Virus record (IMG/VR): IMGVR_UViG_3300010157_000194
Location: 1-28,822 of that record
Length of the DNA stretch: 28,822 bases
From: a virus
Direction: 5' to 3' (one strand)
Shown here: piece after piece, positions 1,349 through 13,072 of the stretch
How the letters are laid out: each line of letters begins with the position of its first letter
How positions within the stretch are numbered: position 1 is the first letter of the stretch
Notes under the pieces: model-generated
The model's input: only the letters and a program-made list of their open reading frames with translations
What the model was told of the DNA's origin: nothing
The model's database searches: none
Translations under genes and position numbers: made by a program

Positions 1349-1503
1349 TGTCATCAATTAACAAAACAGGCGTAACCAATTTATTGGTAATTGCACAACA
1401 ACTTCCATATATTGAATATACATTTTGCACTACAAATAGAAAATTTACTCCGTCTTTTATAGAAATAGAAAAACCTTTTGTAATAGATGAAATGTTAACT
1501 GTG

Positions 1504-1576
1504 GGCAGAAGTAAGGGGATTGAACCCTTGATATCGGAATCACAATCCGAGGTTTTACCACTAAACTAACTTCTGC
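1504..1576 (-). tRNA. tRNA-His (GTG)
   Basis: The minus strand folds into a cloverleaf: acceptor GCAGAAG/CTTCTGC, anticodon stem TCGGA/TCCGA closing the loop TTGTGAT (anticodon GTG), and T arm with TTCAATC. The base after the acceptor stem is C, as expected for position 73 of tRNA-His. CCA is not cleanly encoded. It is the last tRNA of the array. Confidence 0.93.
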
Positions 1577-1579
1577 ATT

Positions 1580-1655
1580 TGGCTCCCCGAGATGGGCTTG
1601 AACCACCGACCTGCGGATTAACAGTCCGTCGCTCTACCAACTGAGCTATCAGGGA
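1580..1655 (-). tRNA. tRNA-Asn (GTT)
   Basis: Cloverleaf with acceptor TCCCTGA/TCGGGGA, D arm with AGTTGGTAGAGC, anticodon loop CTGTTAA (anticodon GTT) and T loop TTCAAGC. The 3' GCCA is encoded. Only three bases separate it from tRNA-His. Confidence 0.95.
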
Positions 1656-1660
1656 ATATT

Positions 1661-1734
1661 TGGCACGGGAACCAGGACTTGAACCTAGAATAACAGAGTC
1701 AAAGTCTGCGGTGTTACCATTACACTATTCCCGA
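1661..1734 (-). tRNA. tRNA-Gln (TTG)
   Basis: Anticodon stem GCAGA/TCTGT closes the loop CTTTGAC (anticodon TTG). The T arm is CTAGG, TTCAAGT, CCTGG, and GCCA is encoded at the 3' end. Acceptor CGGGAA pairs with TTCCCG, but the first pair (T1 with T72) does not form. Weak first pairs are a known identity feature of tRNA-Gln, where it is normally U1-A72. Confidence 0.92.
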
Positions 1735-1740
1735 ATAATT

Positions 1741-1815
1741 TGGCGGTCTCAAGGAGAATTGAACTCCTGCCTAAGGCGTGACAAGCCTTTATACTAACCA
1801 CTATACTATAAGACC
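1741..1815 (-). tRNA. tRNA-Asp (GTC)
   Basis: Acceptor GGTCTTA/TGAGACC, anticodon stem AAGGC/GCCTT with loop TTGTCAC (anticodon GTC), T arm AGGAG, TTCAATT, CTCCT, and encoded GCCA. Its 5' end abuts the long inverted repeat of the neighbouring structured element with no spacer. Confidence 0.95.
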
Positions 1816-1935
1816 ATTTGTTTTGCTGACGCACTATTTGCTACGCTCAACGGAATTGGTGGCCACACTACCGTTTATGTACGCAGTTACTCAGGGTTGA
1901 CGTTTCCCCCATGGCTTACGTCAGCAAAACAAATG
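1815..1935 (-). ncRNA. Candidate structured RNA 1 in the tRNA array (17-bp terminal stem)
   Basis: The 121-base spacer between tRNA-Asp and the second element is bounded by perfect inverted repeats, 1815-1831 and 1919-1935 (CATTTGTTTTGCTGACG and its complement). There is no plausible coding frame. Inside, AACGG at 1849-1853 can pair with CCGTT at 1871-1875. TGACG at 1898-1902 can also pair with CGTCA at 1919-1923, which would compete with the outer stem. The tRNA-like folds I tried do not work. Phage T4 makes two stable non-tRNA RNAs from its tRNA cluster, which is a precedent; homology to those is not claimed. The strand is inferred from the flanking tRNAs. Confidence 0.6.
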
Positions 1936-1936
1936 A

Positions 1937-2152
1937 TACCATATTAAAATACATTAGGGTGTGATTGTCGTTCCAGAACTTCATCTGGCTTCTCACGGCT
2001 TCGTCTGCCGATAAGACAATCTCCACATTACAGACCAATTTGGTTTCTAGCGCCATCGGAAGGCTTCATGTAAACTTAGCGAGATGATGCGGCCATCAAG
2101 TGCTCCTAAGTTACCTACTAGAATTGGTAACCCAATGTATTTTAATATGGTA
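1937..2152 (-). ncRNA. Candidate structured RNA 2 in the tRNA array (19-bp terminal stem, branched)
   Basis: Bases 1937-1955 and 2134-2152 are perfect 19-base inverted repeats. The helix continues for four more pairs (1957-1960 with 2130-2133) across one bulged base. Internal helices visible by eye: 1963-1969 with 2015-2021 (GATTGTC/GACAATC) enclosing 1973-1977 with 1984-1988 and 1996-1999 with 2007-2010; and 2073-2079 with 2106-2112 enclosing 2085-2089 with 2094-2098. A further hairpin pairs 2110-2115 with 2126-2131, partly in competition with the outer helix. This many nested helices in 216 bases is unlikely by chance. No coding frame fits. The right arm overlaps the encoded 3' ACCA of tRNA-Glu, so the two RNAs must be separated by processing. 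Confidence 0.65.
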
Positions 2153-2223
2153 CTCGGTACCGGATTTGAACCGGTGTGAATGCCGTGAAAGGGCACTATC
2201 CTAGGCCGCTAGATGAACCGAGC
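2148..2223 (-). tRNA. tRNA-Glu (TTC)
   Basis: Acceptor GCTCGGT/ACCGAGT (first pair G-T wobble), anticodon stem GTGCC/GGCAT with loop CTTTCAC (anticodon TTC), T arm CCGG, TTCAAAT, CCGG, and encoded ACCA. The last five bases are shared with the terminal stem of structured RNA 2. Confidence 0.94.
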
Positions 2224-2269
2224 ATTTAAAATTTAAAGAACAATGATTGATTTCTCAATCTATGGAAGT

Positions 2270-2297
2270 ATTATAACACAACCAACAAATTTGTCAA
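2270..2297 (-). promoter_or_regulatory. Consensus sigma70-type promoter of the tRNA array
   Basis: Minus strand: TTGACA (2292-2297), 16-base spacer, TATAAT (2270-2275). It lies between tRNA-Cys and tRNA-Glu, so it drives tRNA-Glu and everything downstream. The initial transcribed sequence resembles the leader CCATAGATTGAGAAA seen at the early promoters near 9.8 and 10.3 kb. Confidence 0.85.
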
Positions 2298-2329
2298 CAT
2301 ATTTTTTCAATCTGTTGTTTCGGCACAAA

Positions 2330-2406
2330 TGGAATGGGTGACAGGATTTGAACCTGCATGATACGGATTTGCAATCCGTTGCCTAACCATTCAGCTACAC
2401 ACCCAT
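2330..2406 (-). tRNA. tRNA-Cys (GCA)
   Basis: Anticodon stem ACGGA/TCCGT closes TTGCAAA (anticodon GCA). T arm GCAGG, TTCAAAT, CCTGT. U at position 73 followed by encoded CCA fits tRNA-Cys. The best acceptor pairing is ATGGGTG with CACCCAT, but this leaves four bases rather than two between the acceptor and D stems. The geometry is therefore slightly irregular. Confidence 0.88.
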
Positions 2407-3968: not shown

Positions 3969-4328
3969 TCACTTTAAGTAATTTAATTTCTTCATTATAA
4001 CACTACCTAACACATCTGTGAGGTAATTTTCAATCCATTTGCCTGAATTCTTCGTTTTTCGCAAAACACAACCGTAAATTTCTGTGCCAATCAAGTTTTC
4101 AACATATTTTGTCGGATCACCCAAGATTGCTTCAAACAAATCATCAAATACCGGCGTTCCATCTTCACCTTCTTTGAACATAACGACATGGTACTTGTCA
4201 CCAACTTCATTTCCTTCAATCGGTTCACCGTGACTGTCACCTTTAACTTTAAAATATGTAAAATTCAAAGAATCCACATCATCTTCATACGGTAAAAAGT
4301 AAAAACCGTCATATTTTAAATCTTCCAT
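3969..4328 (-). CDS. Unknown acidic protein (119 aa)
   Basis: Starts MEDLKYDGFYFLPYEDD. It has a mixed alpha/beta-looking composition, no membrane segment and no motif I recognise. It lies 12 bases upstream of the Api92-like gene on the same strand and probably shares its transcript. Confidence 0.6.
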   Translation of the reverse strand: MEDLKYDGFYFLPYEDDVDSLNFTYFKVKGDSHGEPIEGNEVGDKYHVVMFKEGEDGTPVFDDLFEAILGDPTKYVENLIGTEIYGCVLRKTKNSGKWIENYLTDVLGSVIMKKLNYLK

Positions 4329-4343
4329 TGATTTCCTTGTGTT

Positions 4344-4520
4344 TTAGAAGCGACTCATCATAGCTATTAGCATAAAAATTACTGCGCCGAGCAAATCTCC
4401 GAATAAAAATGAGTAAAAACTCATAAAAATTAAAATTCCAAAGATAATCCGAGAAATTTGTGACTGATTTAGAATCACAAATTCACGAAATTTATCTAAA
4501 AAGTCATATTTTTCACTCAT
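4344..4520 (-). CDS. 58-residue membrane protein
   Basis: Begins MSEKYDFLDKFREF, followed by two hydrophobic segments (about residues 24-40 and 44-55), ending MMSRF. Probably a two-pass inner-membrane protein. Its ATG overlaps the stop of a tiny upstream frame in an ATGA arrangement. Function unknown. Confidence 0.55.
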   Translation of the reverse strand: MSEKYDFLDKFREFVILNQSQISRIIFGILIFMSFYSFLFGDLLGAVIFMLIAMMSRF

Positions 4521-4585
4521 GTCATGTTTCCAATGCCATTATTTACGATTTCAACAATCAAAATTATCACCATAGCAAAATTCAT
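4517..4585 (-). CDS. Possible 22-residue hydrophobic leader-like peptide
   Basis: The frame encodes MNFAMVIILIVEIVNNGIGN then MT. It starts two bases after the stop of the upstream conserved gene and ends with a TGA overlapping the next ATG (ATGA). This placement favours translation, but the peptide is so short that it could simply be a spacer. Confidence 0.3.
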   Translation of the reverse strand: MNFAMVIILIVEIVNNGIGNMT

Positions 4586-4586
4586 A

Positions 4587-4865
4587 TCAACTCCAAGTCC
4601 TATGACGTTCAGCTACATGTTCCATACCATCATATTCTTCAATGTACCAGTTCACATCATCTGGAACTTCAACAATTTTTAATTCCGAAAACTGGCCGTC
4701 AAGATTTACACCTTCTTCAACCATTGCGATAAGGTGCTCATTATCTCTAGGAATTTGCCAGTATCCAAAATTAGGGTCGGTTATACCAGCACGCTTTTTA
4801 TAATCTTCTAATGCAGCCTCAGATAAACCAAAACCACCATAACAAGTATTAATTACAACTTTCAT
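4587..4865 (-). CDS. Conserved phage protein, unknown function (92 aa)
   Basis: The start MKVVINTCYGGFGLSEAALE is a well-known opening of a small protein family widespread in tailed phages, for which I know no function. It contains a WQIPRDNEHL segment and an acidic C-terminal half ending in a Trp-Tyr-rich region. No membrane segment. It lies three bases after the stop of the upstream lipoprotein gene. Confidence 0.75.
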   Translation of the reverse strand: MKVVINTCYGGFGLSEAALEDYKKRAGITDPNFGYWQIPRDNEHLIAMVEEGVNLDGQFSELKIVEVPDDVNWYIEEYDGMEHVAERHRTWS

Positions 4866-4868
4866 TTT

Positions 4869-5027
4869 TTATCTTTCGTTACAATAAAGAAAAGAACCGA
4901 CTTCACGGCATATTGGGTTTCTCATTGATTTCATCACTTCTATTTTTTTCTTGGTCATATCATCTAGCGGCTGATTCTGAGCACAGCCAGTAAATATAAC
5001 CAAAAAAATTATAAAAATTTTATTCAT
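4869..5027 (-). CDS. Small lipoprotein (52 aa)
   Basis: Starts MNKIFIIFLVIFTGCAQNQ: a hydrophobic signal segment followed by the lipobox FTGC (Cys15), so it should be lipidated and membrane-anchored. The mature part is 38 residues and has two further Cys (in ICRE and YCNE). The start overlaps the end of the upstream gene by eight bases. Function unknown. Confidence 0.6.
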   Translation of the reverse strand: MNKIFIIFLVIFTGCAQNQPLDDMTKKKIEVMKSMRNPICREVGSFLYCNER

Positions 5028-5223
5028 AATCTAAAGAAGAACCAACATCAAACTGATAACCAAACATCTTGGTTAATTCAGAACTAGTGTCATATTTTAA
5101 TGACATTTCAAGCTCACGATATTCCTGCTCAGCATTCTCTCTGGTAATATCATAGCCTTGCATGTTATAATTATCACGGATAATTCTTTTAACCACCGTT
5201 GATTGTAATTTTCTTTTATCCAT
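5020..5223 (-). CDS. Unknown small protein (67 aa)
   Basis: Starts MDKRKLQSTVVKRIIRDN. Charged and soluble with no recognised motif. It begins in the last base of the upstream gene's stop codon, so translation is likely coupled within the operon that starts at the 5738-5765 promoter. Confidence 0.6.
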   Translation of the reverse strand: MDKRKLQSTVVKRIIRDNYNMQGYDITRENAEQEYRELEMSLKYDTSSELTKMFGYQFDVGSSLDYE

Positions 5224-5411
5224 TAGAACACCAATTCCATCTCTGTCTGCTTAAACATTTCTGCATCCTGAATAGCAAAGGTAAGATAATCACAAAGGCT
5301 TTCACCAACTGAGCCAGAAAGAATAAAGGCTAACTTCTGTAATTCTTCATTGCTCATTTGTGTGATATTATAAGCTACAGAGGTGACAACAAAATCATTT
5401 ATTTTACTCAT
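5223..5411 (-). CDS. Unknown small protein (62 aa)
   Basis: Starts MSKINDFVVTSVAYNITQMS and looks helical and amphipathic (EELQKLAFILSG). No recognised family. It abuts both neighbours with one-base overlaps, and the arrangement supports its being real. Confidence 0.6.
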   Translation of the reverse strand: MSKINDFVVTSVAYNITQMSNEELQKLAFILSGSVGESLCDYLTFAIQDAEMFKQTEMELVF

Positions 5412-5707
5412 TATGCAACCTCACGATTCTTTTCCATCATTTCTGAAAGGATGTATTTAGCGACATTCAATTGTTTGCGGATATCATCTTTGGTAAAATA
5501 ATTACGCTCAAGCATTTCCTGACAATCAGATAAAATACCCATCACAACCATTTCATTACCAGAAAATTTAGCAGTTAAAGAATTCATATATTCTTCACGG
5601 ATATCTGCTTCAGATATTCCGTAGCATTTTTTCTCAAAGTCGGTCATCATAGGCATTTTAGTTTCCACACATTTTCCAGTATCCAACAAGCACTCTTCAA
5701 TTGACAT
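5411..5707 (-). CDS. Unknown protein (98 aa), first gene of a short operon
   Basis: An upstream ATG at 5725 is in frame, but the ATG at 5707 has AAGGG eight bases upstream and gives MSIEECLLDTGKCVETKM, so I chose it. The protein is helical and charged with three Cys in the first half. A strong sigma70-type promoter lies directly upstream (5738-5765). Function unknown. Confidence 0.65.
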   Translation of the reverse strand: MSIEECLLDTGKCVETKMPMMTDFEKKCYGISEADIREEYMNSLTAKFSGNEMVVMGILSDCQEMLERNYFTKDDIRKQLNVAKYILSEMMEKNREVA

Positions 5708-5737
5708 TTTGTAACCCTTTTTCATTTCAATAATGAA

Positions 5738-5765
5738 AGTATAACATAACCACGATAATTGTCAA
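5738..5765 (-). promoter_or_regulatory. Sigma70-type promoter
   Basis: Minus strand TTGACA (5760-5765), 16-base spacer, TATACT (5738-5743). It drives the genes from 5707 leftwards to at least the lipoprotein gene. It has the same spacing as the other early promoters in the window. Confidence 0.8.
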
Positions 5766-5803
5766 TAGCCCTGTTGTATTTTTGCAACAGTAATACTTTT
5801 GTA

Positions 5804-5911
5804 TTAATCTGTGATGTGGACAATAAATGCCAAGAACATCAAAAAGATAATAATATATTCTATAACACCTTTTATTTTTTTCTCACGCTTTAGAATTTCA
5901 CTTTCAATCAT
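5804..5911 (-). CDS. 35-residue single-pass membrane protein
   Basis: Encodes MIESEILKREKKIKGVIEYI followed by a hydrophobic stretch IIFLMFLAFIV. The start overlaps the preceding gene by eight bases. It is the last member of a long overlapping gene string. Function unknown. Confidence 0.45.
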   Translation of the reverse strand: MIESEILKREKKIKGVIEYIIIFLMFLAFIVHITD

Positions 5912-7438: not shown

Positions 7439-7926
7439 ATATTCTTATCCTTGAGTTTGGCTTTAGTTAATTCAACCGCTTGTTCGTAACAAGTGCTGAT
7501 TTTTTGAATTTCAACGCTTTCCTCATCTGTCAGGTCTACCCATGTGCGTTGTTGTGGTATTTGAAAAAAGAATCCAGTTGGCTTTGTTTCATTTTGAATA
7601 CCAGCAGTCCCATTTCCTGCATATTGGGTGTCGGTGGAAACCTGCGTCAACAGTTCAGAGGCGTGTACAGGCACATTCTCTTTATATCCACCGACAAACT
7701 TTTCGGCACACCTTACGCAGTACAGCGCATGGCCCCCTCCAATCCCACATTCAGAACAACCAATTTCTATTTCTTCTTCATTCGTCAGCCCAACCCATGT
7801 GTGTTGTTGTTTCTCTGCTACCAGTTTGGCAAAGGCTTCAAGTTCTTGCGATGTAAAGTAAAACACTTGGTGTTTCTCAAAACATCCAGCCTGTCTAGCC
7901 ATCTCAATGATTTCATTCTGTGTCAT
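7435..7926 (-). CDS. Phage protein with a CxxC zinc-ribbon-like core (163 aa)
   Basis: The N-terminus (MTQNEIIEMARQAGCFEKHQ, then LEAFAKLVAEK) resembles a family frequent in phages. A Cys cluster (GCSEC near residue 58 and CVRC near 71) could bind zinc. The short motif WVGLTNEEE near residue 44 returns as WVDLTDEES near residue 131, suggesting internal duplication. Function unknown. It overlaps both neighbours by four bases. Confidence 0.65.
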   Translation of the reverse strand: MTQNEIIEMARQAGCFEKHQVFYFTSQELEAFAKLVAEKQQHTWVGLTNEEEIEIGCSECGIGGGHALYCVRCAEKFVGGYKENVPVHASELLTQVSTDTQYAGNGTAGIQNETKPTGFFFQIPQQRTWVDLTDEESVEIQKISTCYEQAVELTKAKLKDKNI

Positions 7927-8150
7927 TCTTCTCTCGCTTTCATCATTGCGTCTGCCATTGTAAAAGATAGATACGAAACATAACTATCTAATTTTGGATA
8001 TTCATCAGATAAACCATTTGACAATTCTTTGGCAGGTATTGTTAGTAAACCTTGCATAGCCTTTGCCGCAAAGTAATCACGCAAGGTCATGCCTTTATCT
8101 TTTATTTGTGACCAATCACCGCTTACTGGAAATGCTGGTATATCTTTCAT
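7923..8150 (-). CDS. Conserved phage protein with GMTLRDYFAAKAMQGL motif (75 aa)
   Basis: I chose the ATG at 8150, which overlaps the stop of the upstream membrane gene (ATGA). The result, MKDIPAFPVSGDWSQ followed by GMTLRDYFAAKAMQGL, matches the usual start and core of a very common phage and prophage family of unknown function. The longer open frame upstream is occupied by the membrane-protein gene. Confidence 0.75.
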   Translation of the reverse strand: MKDIPAFPVSGDWSQIKDKGMTLRDYFAAKAMQGLLTIPAKELSNGLSDEYPKLDSYVSYLSFTMADAMMKAREE

Positions 8151-8254
8151 ATCAAATAACCTATAATAAACGCTAATGCAAAACCCACTATACAAAAGTA
8201 TAGGGTACCAATAGAGAACAAAAAAGCATCATCAAAAAAATCATTTAGTTTCAT
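8147..8254 (-). CDS. 35-residue membrane protein
   Basis: Encodes MKLNDFFDDAFLFSIGTLYF followed by CIVGFALAFIIGYLI, a single hydrophobic segment. It overlaps both flanking genes by four bases, which strongly favours it being translated. Function unknown. Confidence 0.5.
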   Translation of the reverse strand: MKLNDFFDDAFLFSIGTLYFCIVGFALAFIIGYLI

Positions 8255-8415
8255 TCCGCATAAACCAGACTTCTGGCCTCCAATTTAGTCACAGGGCATT
8301 CAAAGTGCATAATGTCACGACCTTGTATGTCCTCTTCCACATTTAAAAATTTGATGCTATTCATATCATGCTCTTCGGAACACTCAGTACAAATCACGAT
8401 AAAATTTCTATTCAT
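8251..8415 (-). CDS. Small Cys-containing protein (54 aa)
   Basis: Encodes MNRNFIVICTECSEEHDMN, with a CxxC pair, later HFEC, and ends SLVYAE. The Cys/His set could bind one zinc ion. It is the first gene of the overlapping string running left to 5804 and sits just downstream of the GGATCC repeat block. No promoter with a good -35 was found directly upstream. Confidence 0.5.
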   Translation of the reverse strand: MNRNFIVICTECSEEHDMNSIKFLNVEEDIQGRDIMHFECPVTKLEARSLVYAE

Positions 8416-8454
8416 ATAATACATCCTAACATAAACACAAGTACCTTAGTGGCA

Positions 8455-8660
8455 AACTAAGGATCCTTTGCCTGAAACACCTCCAGAGAATGACGGGGGG
8501 CTGTATATAAAGTAAGGATCCTTTGCCTCAATTACTTCCAGAGGGAGACGGGGGTCTCTCGGATAATTAATTAAGGGATCCTCATGTGGTTCCCAGAGTC
8601 TCCTTTCTAAGGATCCTTACCACTTAATATAACTGCTCTCCAGTCTTGACGGGGGGCTGC
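8455..8660. repeat. Gene-free block with four GGATCC-centred repeats
   Basis: The stretch from 8416 to 8663 has no convincing gene. It contains GGATCC at 8461, 8516, 8576 and 8611, mostly within AAGGATCCTT-like palindromes. Three copies of a GACGGGGG(G)-containing segment lie at about 8492, 8547 and 8648, with CCAGAG or CCAG elements between them. The unit order is GGATCC, CCAGAG, GACGGGGG, repeated with drift at roughly 55-60 bases; the third and fourth copies are rearranged. It separates two operons. It could be a structured RNA, an array of protein sites or a recombination site. Confidence 0.6.
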
Positions 8661-8663
8661 TAA

Positions 8664-8813
8664 TCACTCACTCAGTTTAAACACTCTCAGAATTTCAGGG
8701 CATGCTTCACGAGGCACACCTTCCATCACCATCAGTTCAATTATGGATTCATCCGACAAACCTGTCTCCAGTGATTCAACCAACAAAATATTTAACTCAC
8801 TCATCCTGCTCAT
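8664..8813 (-). CDS. Unknown small protein (49 aa)
   Basis: Encodes MSRMSELNILLVESLETGLS and ends EILRVFKLSE. A GAGAGGA ribosome site lies upstream of the ATG. Soluble and helical. It is the last gene of the operon that starts at the 9782-9809 promoter. The repeat block follows its stop. Confidence 0.5.
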   Translation of the reverse strand: MSRMSELNILLVESLETGLSDESIIELMVMEGVPREACPEILRVFKLSE

Positions 8814-8823
8814 GTTTTTCCTC

Positions 8824-9135
8824 TCAAAAGGTGTTCAAACTTGGTTCAAATTCGGCAATATACTGGCGCTCCCTTTGGTGTGCAGGTTTGCGACCTCTCA
8901 CCACCTCAAGCACCTCATAGCGCCACTCTGCATCAGCATTGGCTCTCAGAGCATTACAGAATGACCATTGCTTGTCTTCCTTCATGGCACGGGACACATG
9001 CTTCTGCCATCTGACCTTAACTGAGCGCAAGAAGGCTTGTCCCTGTGCTACTGTTAGACCAATGTAATTATCACCAGTGTCCACACAGGTCACTTGGTAT
9101 ATCACATGGTTACGGTCAGAGCGCTTTTTTCTCAT
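8824..9135 (-). CDS. GIY-YIG nuclease domain protein (103 aa)
   Basis: I chose the start at 9135 (MRKKRSDRNHVIYQVTC), just after the stop of the upstream small gene. A longer frame runs through that gene. The pattern VIYQVTC, DNYIGLT, then RWQKHVSRA, and a Glu-containing helix 'HQRERQYIAEFEP' fits a minimal GIY-YIG nuclease domain. Such proteins act as homing endonucleases or as DNA-nicking enzymes. No separate DNA-binding domain is present. Confidence 0.65.
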   Translation of the reverse strand: MRKKRSDRNHVIYQVTCVDTGDNYIGLTVAQGQAFLRSVKVRWQKHVSRAMKEDKQWSFCNALRANADAEWRYEVLEVVRGRKPAHQRERQYIAEFEPSLNTF

Positions 9136-9136
9136 A

Positions 9137-9256
9137 TTAATTAGGCAGTAACTCGCTGATTTTCTCTTGCAAATCCATAATGAAGTCTTGAGCATCCTCT
9201 TCATTCATTTCAGCTATTTGCGCTTCTACTAGCGCTACTATTTCATTTAAACTCAT
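9137..9256 (-). CDS. 39-residue acidic helical protein
   Basis: Encodes MSLNEIVALVEAQIAEMNEE and ends EKISELLPN. It starts inside the stop of the upstream gene (ATGA) and ends one base before the start of the GIY-YIG gene. No family recognised. Confidence 0.5.
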   Translation of the reverse strand: MSLNEIVALVEAQIAEMNEEDAQDFIMDLQEKISELLPN

Positions 9257-9519
9257 ATGTAAAAATCCTCTGTAAATCGGCAAGCATCGTATACCATCTC
9301 ACGCACAGCTGTATCCATTGCTTCACCATAGCGCTCAGGTTCACTCTTGGCGAGGTCTTTCAAACTCTGATAAACAACCGTCCAAGGATTGTTATTTGCT
9401 CTATGATAGTCTACAATGAAAGCAACAGCGTTGTTACCTTCATCGGTGAACATTCCAAAGTAGCGTGGTTCAATAGGCAATGCCATTGTAACTGTGGTTT
9501 CATTTTGCGATACTATCAT
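9253..9519 (-). CDS. Unknown soluble protein (88 aa)
   Basis: The ATG at 9519 is preceded by GGAGATAAT, so MIVSQNETTVTMALPIEP is preferred over an upstream in-frame ATG. The product contains DEGNNAVAFIVDYHRANNNP, suggesting a compact alpha/beta domain. Function unknown. Confidence 0.6.
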   Translation of the reverse strand: MIVSQNETTVTMALPIEPRYFGMFTDEGNNAVAFIVDYHRANNNPWTVVYQSLKDLAKSEPERYGEAMDTAVREMVYDACRFTEDFYI

Positions 9520-11212: not shown

Positions 11213-11268
11213 TGATACCCATAGGTTTCATTATAGTATAACAATTGATACTCATAGGTTTCATTATA
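11213..11268. repeat. Two 23-base direct repeats, offset 33
   Basis: The unit TGATACYCATAGGTTTCATT plus ATA occurs at 11213-11235 and 11246-11268 with a single difference. The second copy overlaps the last codons of the 11264-11590 gene. They lie about 30 bases after the -10 of the plus-strand promoter. Tandem operator or iteron function is possible. Confidence 0.7.
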
Positions 11269-11590
11269 ATCTGAGATTATCATCATCATCAAAAGTGGGT
11301 ATCTCAACAGCCCAATCGTCTGGCTCTAGTATATAATGACCTTCTTTTATTTTCTGATTAATCTCAGCACGCTTAGTATTCTGTCTTGCAACCATATGAC
11401 CCGTTGCAATACCCTCTGGCGTTTGAAAATACTCATTTACTGTATTAGTTATTTTCTCTCTGGTCTCTTCGGATTGCTCTCTGCCCGTATTATTAACTGT
11501 TGAAGCACAAGACTGAGAACAGTAATTACCTTTCTTCCTGTGTTCGGTATCGCAATTGGGACATCGTTTTAATCTATACACGCCTGGCAT
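11264..11590 (-). CDS. Zinc-finger, NUMOD-like homing-endonuclease-associated protein (108 aa)
   Basis: The N-terminus CPNC...HRKKGNYCSQSC (residues 9-29) is a CxxC/CxxxC zinc-finger-like motif like those at the start of many phage homing endonucleases. A NUMOD3-like stretch (SEETREKITNTV) follows, and then a region resembling the start of related HNH proteins. The catalytic HNH core is not evident, so it may be a truncated homing endonuclease or a stand-alone DNA-binding protein. It lies directly downstream of a GIY-YIG endonuclease gene. Confidence 0.55.
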   Translation of the reverse strand: MPGVYRLKRCPNCDTEHRKKGNYCSQSCASTVNNTGREQSEETREKITNTVNEYFQTPEGIATGHMVARQNTKRAEINQKIKEGHYILEPDDWAVEIPTFDDDDNLRL

Positions 11591-11596
11591 ATATTA

Positions 11597-12382
11597 TCAT
11601 CGGTTCAGGTTACTACCACTTTTTTGCACTTTATTGCACTTATATACATCTGGTGCCTTTATAATTTCTCTTATTCTGTTTCTATCAATATTATATTTTC
11701 TCTGTAATGCTGACTTGGTTGCACCATTATTATGCTCTCTTATGATAGTCTCTATTAATTCTAAACTATACTTTACTTTAATAACACCGGTTAATCGGTC
11801 TTTTATCGCTTGGCAAAACTCTTTAGACCTTTTCTTATCCTTATTTGATAATATTCTTTTTTCTATTGTAGACTGTGATTGTTTTTTACCAGTTAAACTT
11901 TTACTAATTTTCGCCTTCACCTCATCACTAGGTGATACTCCTTTATTAATTGGCCCGCCATATCTCTCCAACATGGTGACTTTTCTTTTCTCTATTGCAT
12001 CCTTTGATTGTTTACGCCCTATTAAGGATATTCTAATTTTTTCTCTCATTTCAGGCGTAAATCCTTTAGAAGACTTACGCATTTTATTTTTAGTTTCTTC
12101 TGATAATTTACGACCACTTGCACCCTCACCACCATCTGTTAGGTTTCTTAGTATTCCTGTGTTATTATCTTTTCTGCCATAAAATAGGATAAAATCTCTC
12201 TCATTAGAAAACGCTTGTTCCTCTGTAAGGTTCTGTAATATTATCTTAATTTTATCTCTATTATTTGGTGGTAATATTTCTCTATCTCCTTTTCTATACG
12301 CTCTTTTACCCTTGCCCTTACCAATATAATACGGTGTGCCGTTTTCTCTCAGGTATGCATAAACATAATAGTCTTCGGTCAT
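11597..12382 (-). CDS. GIY-YIG homing endonuclease with NUMOD3 repeats (261 aa)
   Basis: The N-terminal GIY-YIG domain shows YYVYAYL (residues 5-11), PYYIGKGKGKRAYRKG (about 17-32), and a later Glu-containing helix (EEQAFSNERDFILFYG). LRNLTDGGEGASGRKLSEET then leads into several NUMOD3 modules (GRKLSEETKNKM, GRKQSKDAIEKR, GKKQSQSTIEKR), which bind DNA. The C-terminal ~40 residues (TIIREHNNGATKSALQRKY) look like a helix-turn-helix. This is the standard layout of free-standing phage homing endonucleases. The start overlaps the upstream DruA-like gene by four bases. Confidence 0.85.
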   Translation of the reverse strand: MTEDYYVYAYLRENGTPYYIGKGKGKRAYRKGDREILPPNNRDKIKIILQNLTEEQAFSNERDFILFYGRKDNNTGILRNLTDGGEGASGRKLSEETKNKMRKSSKGFTPEMREKIRISLIGRKQSKDAIEKRKVTMLERYGGPINKGVSPSDEVKAKISKSLTGKKQSQSTIEKRILSNKDKKRSKEFCQAIKDRLTGVIKVKYSLELIETIIREHNNGATKSALQRKYNIDRNRIREIIKAPDVYKCNKVQKSGSNLNR

Positions 12383-12948
12383 ACTCTCTCCGTTATTAAT
12401 ATCTTTTTTCTGTTCTCACCTGTGGGTTTCATATACTTTTCTTTTATATCCTCTTTACTATCCCACTTCATTGATACTGATTTTCTATTGGGCGGTAGAC
12501 CAGCAGTTTCGCCTATATTCTTCCAGTTATCAGCAAGGTATACTGACCCATTATGATTTGCACCTATTGTAGTGACTATGGCTAATAATTCATCGCCATA
12601 TCTATTGTTCCAGTCTGTTTTGGCACGGTTTCTGATTGTCTTTAATATCTGACTACCAATGTTTGGTATTCTTTCACTCATACAAAATCTCTTATTATCG
12701 GCAACCTTATTGAATATCATATCATATTGCTTCTGATTAAGGTTGAAATGATTTAATATTGCTTTGGGTGTGGGTTTGAAGCCTGACCCTATCCAGAATG
12801 TGCCAATAATACGGTCTTCATAGTGAATTAGGTACTTCAAGCATCTACCTACAGTTCTGGCTGATTTGACATAACTATGATGGTTTATCACAATATTATC
12901 AGCAATTTTCTTGTCTTGCGGAGTATTGGCAATTTCAATTCTTAACAT
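12379..12948 (-). CDS. DUF4338/DruA-like protein (189 aa)
   Basis: The layout matches my memory of the DUF4338 domain (DruA of Druantia systems): VGRCLKYLIHYEDRIIGT (33-50), then NKRFCM...IPNIGSQILKTI (85-105), DWNNRYGDELLAI (112-124), then GSVYLADNWKNIGETAG (134-150). In DUF4338 the corresponding landmarks are N-RF, DW--RYG, and Y-A-NW---GET-G. The fold may be acyltransferase-like. A Mom-type modification enzyme is another possibility. It sits between homing-type genes and is not accompanied by other Druantia genes in this window. Confidence 0.5.
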   Translation of the reverse strand: MLRIEIANTPQDKKIADNIVINHHSYVKSARTVGRCLKYLIHYEDRIIGTFWIGSGFKPTPKAILNHFNLNQKQYDMIFNKVADNKRFCMSERIPNIGSQILKTIRNRAKTDWNNRYGDELLAIVTTIGANHNGSVYLADNWKNIGETAGLPPNRKSVSMKWDSKEDIKEKYMKPTGENRKKILITERV

Positions 12949-13072
12949 CTAACTCTTTTATATACTTATAGAGTTTAACATAATACTCAAACTCTTTGGG
13001 ACAATGCTCTGGATTTGGCAGTCTGTCACCATACATCTCCAAAAATTCTTTTATCTGTTCTTCAACTGTCAT
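12935..13072 (-). CDS. Unknown 45-residue protein
   Basis: Encodes MTVEEQIKEFLEMYGDRLPN then PEHCPKEFEYYVKLYKYIKE. It overlaps the DruA-like gene start by 14 bases and the upstream gene stop by four. Helical and soluble. No family recognised. Confidence 0.5.
   Translation of the reverse strand: MTVEEQIKEFLEMYGDRLPNPEHCPKEFEYYVKLYKYIKELDVKN

Follow-up and report, generated by a model that had tools for sequence, protein, structure and literature searches.

A phage-borne GNAT-fold protein of the Mom/DUF4338 superfamily, beside a GIY-YIG endonuclease gene, as a proposed DNA-modification enzyme

The gene under study, here P0001, lies at 12379..12948 on the minus strand of the window, by which we mean the whole 28.8-kb virus contig that was analysed, and runs from an ATG start to a TGA stop, encoding 189 aa. 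An earlier note on this DNA had placed an ORF with three DUF4338 landmarks here, and both the position and the landmarks were found exactly as described (N85-x-R87-F88, D112-W113-N-N-R116-Y117-G118 and Y137-x-A139-x-N141-W142-K-N-I-G146-E-T-A-G150). Because its dN/dS against a 92%-identical relative is 0.11, P0001 is a functional coding gene under purifying selection. Its start overlaps a 45-aa ORF directly upstream (12935..13072, minus strand), and its stop overlaps the start of the next gene as ATGA (12382-12379; minus-strand junction ...GAGAGTATGACC...), which bears out the suggested translational coupling to an endonuclease gene. This downstream gene (11597..12382, minus strand) encodes a GIY-YIG/NUMOD3 endonuclease of 261 aa that matches the homing endonuclease PHROG 314 (E = 6e-11) and Pfam NUMOD3 (E = 7e-7, above the cut-off), with Y-I-G-K recognized by eye. 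The following ORF, of 108 aa with CxxC pairs (11264..11590, minus strand), shows a weak HNH match (1.3e-3). The homing-endonuclease cluster described earlier therefore stands as one clear GIY-YIG/NUMOD3 gene, and the word cluster was an overstatement. The neighbours of P0001 are otherwise small phage ORFs. Phage records searched with the nucleotide sequence of the window gave no match, and a scan of bacterial genomes for close relatives of P0001 found none. Six tRNA genes (His, Asn, Gln, Asp, Glu, Cys) occur elsewhere in the window (1502-2406, minus strand).

P0001 and the body of the nuclease gene form a variable cassette of ~1.3 kb (11641..12947, minus strand), a swappable block with conserved edges. 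The cassette is absent from a sister phage, L258, in which blocks of 92.5-92.9% identity carrying the same genes bracket the cassette site (4180-5886, 7888-9473) and 1.1 kb of unrelated DNA, including a different 172-aa ORF, occupies the site itself; the cassette is thus an inserted block with an alternative occupant in a sister genome. The 45-aa ORF constitutes the conserved left flank and the 108-aa ORF, 97% identical in L258, the right flank. By eye, the 172-aa ORF (L258:7413-7931) has the look of a GIY-YIG-clan nuclease (T5orf172-like), and the site that of a hotspot for swapped nucleases. In L001, the nearest relative, P0001 is kept (92% aa identity) and a 192-aa ORF replaces the GIY-YIG gene; the downstream ORFs of the window, L258 and L001 share a similar ending of ~40 bp, corresponding to the last ~42 nt of the GIY-YIG gene. 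For the 192-aa ORF, searches of PADLOC, NCBIfam and PDB and for further viral relatives found nothing and the best Pfam match (0.026) was unrelated, so that we do not claim it as a PD-(D/E)XK nuclease on a by-eye likeness (PDLLINDIPCEIK). A further contig, L010, matches the P0001 gene at 98.3% identity but its flanking DNA mostly at 82-87%. A GIY-YIG neighbour was found at 0/107 other family loci among the matches listed, and none of the 37 contigs with relatives of the window GIY-YIG gene carried a family gene nearby, the closest of them, L319, starting inside the GIY-YIG gene and thus not covering the upstream side. Because neither set shares the pairing, the association of P0001 with its GIY-YIG neighbour is local and recent, and a GIY-YIG linkage as a family trait was ruled out.

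To define the family, viral contigs were scanned for Y.A.NW..[IL]G.T.G, which yielded at least 120 loci; this sample is motif-selected and its contigs are redundant. The recovered proteins make up a large, coherent set of phage proteins, mostly of ~190-250 aa. On its own, P0001 reached 21.8-21.9 bits (E = 1.2e-4) against Pfam DruA/DUF4338 (PF14236), below the gathering score of 27 bits, and E = 5e-5 against PHROG 1384, a 'Mom-like DNA modification protein', with no match to Pfam Mom (PF25680) at E ≤ 10. Some relatives do exceed the PF14236 cut-off on their own, e.g., L102:2543-3253 with 60.6 bits. Among the matches listed, Pfam DruA was matched by 36 of the 43 aligned family members (best 2e-27), the Mom-like PHROG by 38 of 43, and Pfam Mom weakly by 5 of 43 (best 4.8e-4). 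A PF14236 search of whole records gave no match, the first pass probably being too coarse. At the profile level, the family aligned with cellular DUF4338 over 184 columns (hhalign E = 2.1e-28) and with the Mom profile at E = 2e-13, and DUF4338 aligned with Mom at E = 3e-14. Because one motif had recruited both sets, the recruiting motif was removed from the profiles as a control, which left 4e-24 for the family vs DUF4338, 3.5e-7 for the family vs Mom and 4e-6 for DUF4338 vs Mom; a second control with shuffled columns gave E = 0.2-0.65. A chance likeness through the recruiting motif is thereby ruled out, and the family is placed in the DUF4338 superfamily, with the landmarks common to P0001 and cellular DUF4338 lying on the DUF4338 core. 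The earlier assignment to DUF4338 accordingly stands as superfamily membership, although P0001 itself falls under the Pfam cut-off and lacks a PADLOC DruA match. DUF4338 has previously been termed a GNAT domain (PMC10853773).

The predicted structure agrees with this placement. The AlphaFold2 model of P0001 (mean pLDDT 92.9), compared by Foldseek with 350,542 PDB chains, has a GNAT fold, with Mom of phage Mu as its nearest solved structure (8bv8, E = 8e-6), followed by GNAT acetyltransferases; a sequence search of solved structures with either P0001 or the family profile returned chance matches only. Mom of phage Mu (Pfam PF25680, PDB 8bv8) is a methylcarbamoylase of adenine. P0001 retains five of the Mom active-site columns, namely H24 (codon 12877..12879, minus strand, as are all codons given here; Mom H48), R87 (12688..12690; Mom R101), S99 within N96-I-G-S99 (12652..12654; the catalytic Ser of Mom), Y137 (12538..12540; Mom Y149) and N141 (12526..12528; Mom N153). 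Among the matches listed, H occupies the first of these columns in 45/45 family members and S or T the serine column in 45/45, and the Y and N columns are invariant. S99 aligns with Ser114 (numbering of our Mu record), the residue changed in the inactive mutant of 8bv8. The sixth column, Mom D139, is replaced by G129 (12562..12564). In the phage family this column is mostly G, A, Q, E or V, with Asp in 0/45 of the matches listed; elsewhere it is acidic, being Asp in 18/19 Mom proteins and 22 D plus 6 E among 29 cellular DUF4338 proteins. Because this Asp is missing, the chemistry of the P0001 family may differ from the Mom reaction. Among the matches listed, the pattern-recruited set mostly reads TFVG/TFVA at this site and P0001 is of the TTIG type; the endonuclease-coupled members that we inspected are of the TFVG/TFVA type, unlike P0001.

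The relationship of P0001 to DruA of the Druantia defence system was assessed against five DruA sequences from genomes of one bacterial class, which match the PADLOC model at 5e-81 to 5e-196. A PADLOC scan of P0001 matched no DruA model, the protein has 189 aa vs ~400 aa for Druantia DruA, and no ORF in the window approaches the size of the giant helicase among the Druantia operon partners, the largest having 601 aa. The family and Druantia DruA profiles are nonetheless related (E = 9e-11). A separate phage protein of ~400 aa aligns with Druantia DruA over almost its entire length (profile E = 2e-29, 258 columns), and its copy in L107 matches PADLOC DruA at 1e-20. Such proteins (L107:11916-13118, L056:4575-5795, L103:543-1769, L044:1-1065, L017:560-1837) recur near P0001-family genes in phage contigs; in them the Mom active-site columns are gone, and Druantia DruA carries the same replacement motifs. 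In the tree, the ~400-aa phage proteins group with Druantia DruA as its sister clade (SH-aLRT 99 for the two together), both the P0001 family (SH-aLRT 90) and the cellular DUF4338 sample (91) stand apart, and Mom is split from the P0001 family at 100%; the branching order of the P0001 family, cellular DUF4338 and the DruA clade is weak (SH-aLRT 85), as is the support for the order at the root. The phylogeny thus sets the P0001 family as its own clade, apart from both DruA and Mom-like enzymes, and we rejected P0001 as an orthologue of Druantia DruA. The proposed link of P0001 to DruA did not hold in this form: DruA belongs to another lineage, whose nearest phage kin in our sample is the ~400-aa protein. 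The literature searched gave no description of a biochemical role for Druantia DruA, and DruA-like proteins have been noted in six Synechococcus phages (Phold paper, PMC12774648). One phage DruA-like protein of 551 aa (L092:3-1655) weakly matches intein-splicing and LAGLIDADG profiles (E 0.02-0.03) and possibly contains an intein.

P0001 had also been called stand-alone, which is correct in that Druantia genes are lacking around it; it is not a peculiarity, since 26/76 loci in the cellular DUF4338 sample have a transposase family directly downstream, and 17/76 have another conserved gene upstream. Single members of these neighbours were identified by Pfam as IS66 transposase (downstream) and IS66 TnpB (upstream), and no giant Druantia-like helicase was present among the neighbours checked. 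Because stand-alone DUF4338 genes are common in the cellular sample, standing alone is not a mark of Druantia. Genes of this kind lie within IS66-type transposons at cellular loci (L131-L249, e.g., L168:673-2415 and L155:3583-4260).

The neighbours of P0001-family genes are mostly T4-like replication genes, and many members are without a nuclease partner (among the matches listed). One direct neighbour recurs at 9 loci with gaps of -7 to +12 nt (among the matches listed), and its structural model matches only R.HinP1I structures (2fkc, 1e-7, probability 1.00; then 9e-7), the third hit falling to 0.14. A reciprocal scan of viral contigs, seeded with this HinP1I-like endonuclease alone, recovered 52 loci, and in 43/52 a P0001-family gene is the immediate same-strand neighbour, preceding the endonuclease in one of its subfamilies and following it in the other. 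The survey of neighbours in other phages thus shows P0001 relatives paired with a restriction-type endonuclease. In 5/52 loci (L314-L318), a DNA methyltransferase occupies the slot just after the endonuclease, and the three that were scanned match Pfam N6_N4_Mtase (PF01555) at 1e-44 to 2e-47. At L309 a methyltransferase lies two genes upstream of the endonuclease, at L294 and L295 the ORF downstream carries an SPPY motif, by pattern only, and at L288 neither a GNAT nor a methyltransferase gene was seen near the endonuclease. A methyltransferase profile run over the endonuclease loci matched only L309 and L314-L318, and 0/43 of the loci with a GNAT gene; a crude motif search indicated one possible distant DPPY ORF in L307. 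When the endonucleases were clustered at 80% identity, 11/18 clusters were accompanied by the GNAT, 3 by a methyltransferase and 4 by other genes. The cultured cyanophages S-CAM22 and S-RIM12 likewise have an annotated methyltransferase after the endonuclease. HinP1I-like enzymes are present at L299-L318 and in NC_055710 (S-CAM22, 32917-34262), and the cultured-cyanophage pairs are annotated only as a hypothetical protein and a methyltransferase. Because the GNAT stands next to a restriction enzyme where a methyltransferase is otherwise found, it is most simply understood as the modification enzyme.

Mom-family genes also abut or overlap P0001-family genes at approximately six independent loci (L012, L036/L093, L039, L070/L080, L102 and L107). 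At L102:1-3253, five consecutive same-strand GNAT genes occur, three Mom-type, one P0001-type and one longer and DruA-like, a run resembling a multi-enzyme DNA-modification array. The coupling to a restriction enzyme and the exchange with a methyltransferase are seen in relatives of P0001 only: the window has no HinP1I-like gene, its nuclease being GIY-YIG, and the partner in L001 is only PD-(D/E)XK-looking.

Taken as a whole, the sequence comparisons lead us to consider it likely that P0001 is a GNAT DNA-modification enzyme that shields phage DNA against a companion nuclease and possibly against host restriction. Of the roles raised earlier, the evidence from relatives (restriction-enzyme pairing and the methyltransferase swap) favours that of a phage-borne modification protein. 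Because relatives adjoin a nuclease where other phages keep a methylase, P0001 probably marks the virus's own DNA. The enzyme would use acyl-CoA to place a non-methyl group, presumably of the acyl or carbamoyl type, on bases of phage DNA, and would act as the modification half of a restriction-modification-like pair. The nuclease half would be swappable, being HinP1I-like in numerous relatives, GIY-YIG in the window and, in L001, an ORF that looks like PD-(D/E)XK, and the DNA so modified would resist the companion nuclease and perhaps host restriction too. In the window, the nuclease guarded against may be, or may have been, the product of the downstream GIY-YIG gene.

GNATs can acylate proteins, RNA or small molecules as well. 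P0001 might accordingly acylate a host protein, e.g., a defence or transcription factor, and serve as a counter-defence effector and not as a DNA modifier. Protein acylation is common for GNATs, the Asp of Mom is absent from P0001, and Iyer et al. 2024 (PMC10853773) proposed proteins as possible targets of the DUF4338 GNAT domains that are fused to DndF; we nevertheless regard this as unlikely, for it leaves unexplained the pairing with restriction enzymes in 43/52 loci, the exchange of position with methyltransferases and the pairing with Mom genes. The organization of the window invites a different reading, in which P0001 travels with the GIY-YIG enzyme in a mobile homing cassette, either as its helper, guarding the site, or as a hitch-hiker. 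NUMOD3 together with GIY-YIG is typical of phage homing enzymes, the two genes are joined by the ATGA overlap and are missing en bloc from L258 despite ~93% identity on either side, and the GNAT gene of L010 is far closer to P0001 (98.3%) than its flanks (mostly 82-87%). A GIY-YIG neighbour, however, accompanies 0/107 of the other family loci among the matches listed, 0/37 contigs with GIY-YIG relatives have a family gene nearby (L319 starting inside the gene), and in L001 the retained GNAT gene is followed by another ORF, which makes such a role rather improbable.

That P0001 is degenerate and catalytically dead, with a structural or DNA-binding role such as DruA may have, appears very unlikely. 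The Asp column is indeed lost in the P0001 family, and because the ~400-aa phage proteins and Druantia DruA are without the Mom active-site columns, loss of activity is probable within the superfamily. Against this, the five other active-site columns are retained across very divergent phages, those of H, S/T, Y and N in 45/45 aligned members among the matches listed, and the dN/dS of 0.11 also speaks for function. Modification of phage DNA thus remains our preferred reading of P0001. More tentatively, and at somewhat less than even chances, some phage restriction-modification modules may constitute a class that employs a DUF4338/Mom-type GNAT instead of the methyltransferase, introducing a non-methyl modification, with DruA and its ~400-aa phage counterpart as catalytically dead offshoots.

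P0001 can be set beside several known systems. With Mu Mom it shares a phage-borne GNAT fold, the H48/R101/Ser/Y149/N153 columns, the top Foldseek PDB match and the match to the Mom-like PHROG; unlike Mom, it has no Pfam Mom match, lacks the D139 acid, belongs to a different clade and bears the DUF4338 signatures NxRF, DW..RYG and GETAG. Cellular stand-alone DUF4338 proteins (PF14236) have the same landmarks and active-site columns (profile 2e-28, 184 columns), but are ~290-300 aa long with an extra N-terminal region, keep the Asp/Glu and adjoin transposase genes, often in IS66-type transposons, whereas P0001 adjoins a nuclease gene. Druantia type I DruA (PADLOC PDLC00002) is of the same superfamily (profile 9e-11) and differs in its ~400 aa, lost active-site columns and operon. 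Mom-REase fusions have been described in jumbo phages (PMC7824862), and these, as well as R-M systems of the R.HinP1I type, resemble the P0001 family in tying a modification enzyme to a restriction-type nuclease; in the P0001 family, by contrast, modification would fall to a DUF4338-like GNAT encoded by its own gene in the methyltransferase slot, and the nuclease of the window is GIY-YIG, unlike that of R.HinP1I-type systems. Our literature search, which covered few subscription papers, found no separate DUF4338-like GNAT replacing a methyltransferase. The methyltransferase swap is new, while DUF4338 as a GNAT, the association of Mom with a REase and DruA-like proteins in phages were already known.

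Here, a large uncharacterised phage family gains a testable function, and the results point to a non-methyl modification enzyme in the methyltransferase slot of restriction modules. If this is true, a DNA modification may have been missed by methyl-based sequencing pipelines. Our results also place Druantia DruA in a superfamily of DNA-modifying enzymes and name the residues that it has lost, so that whether DruA is an enzyme or a dead DNA sensor becomes testable.
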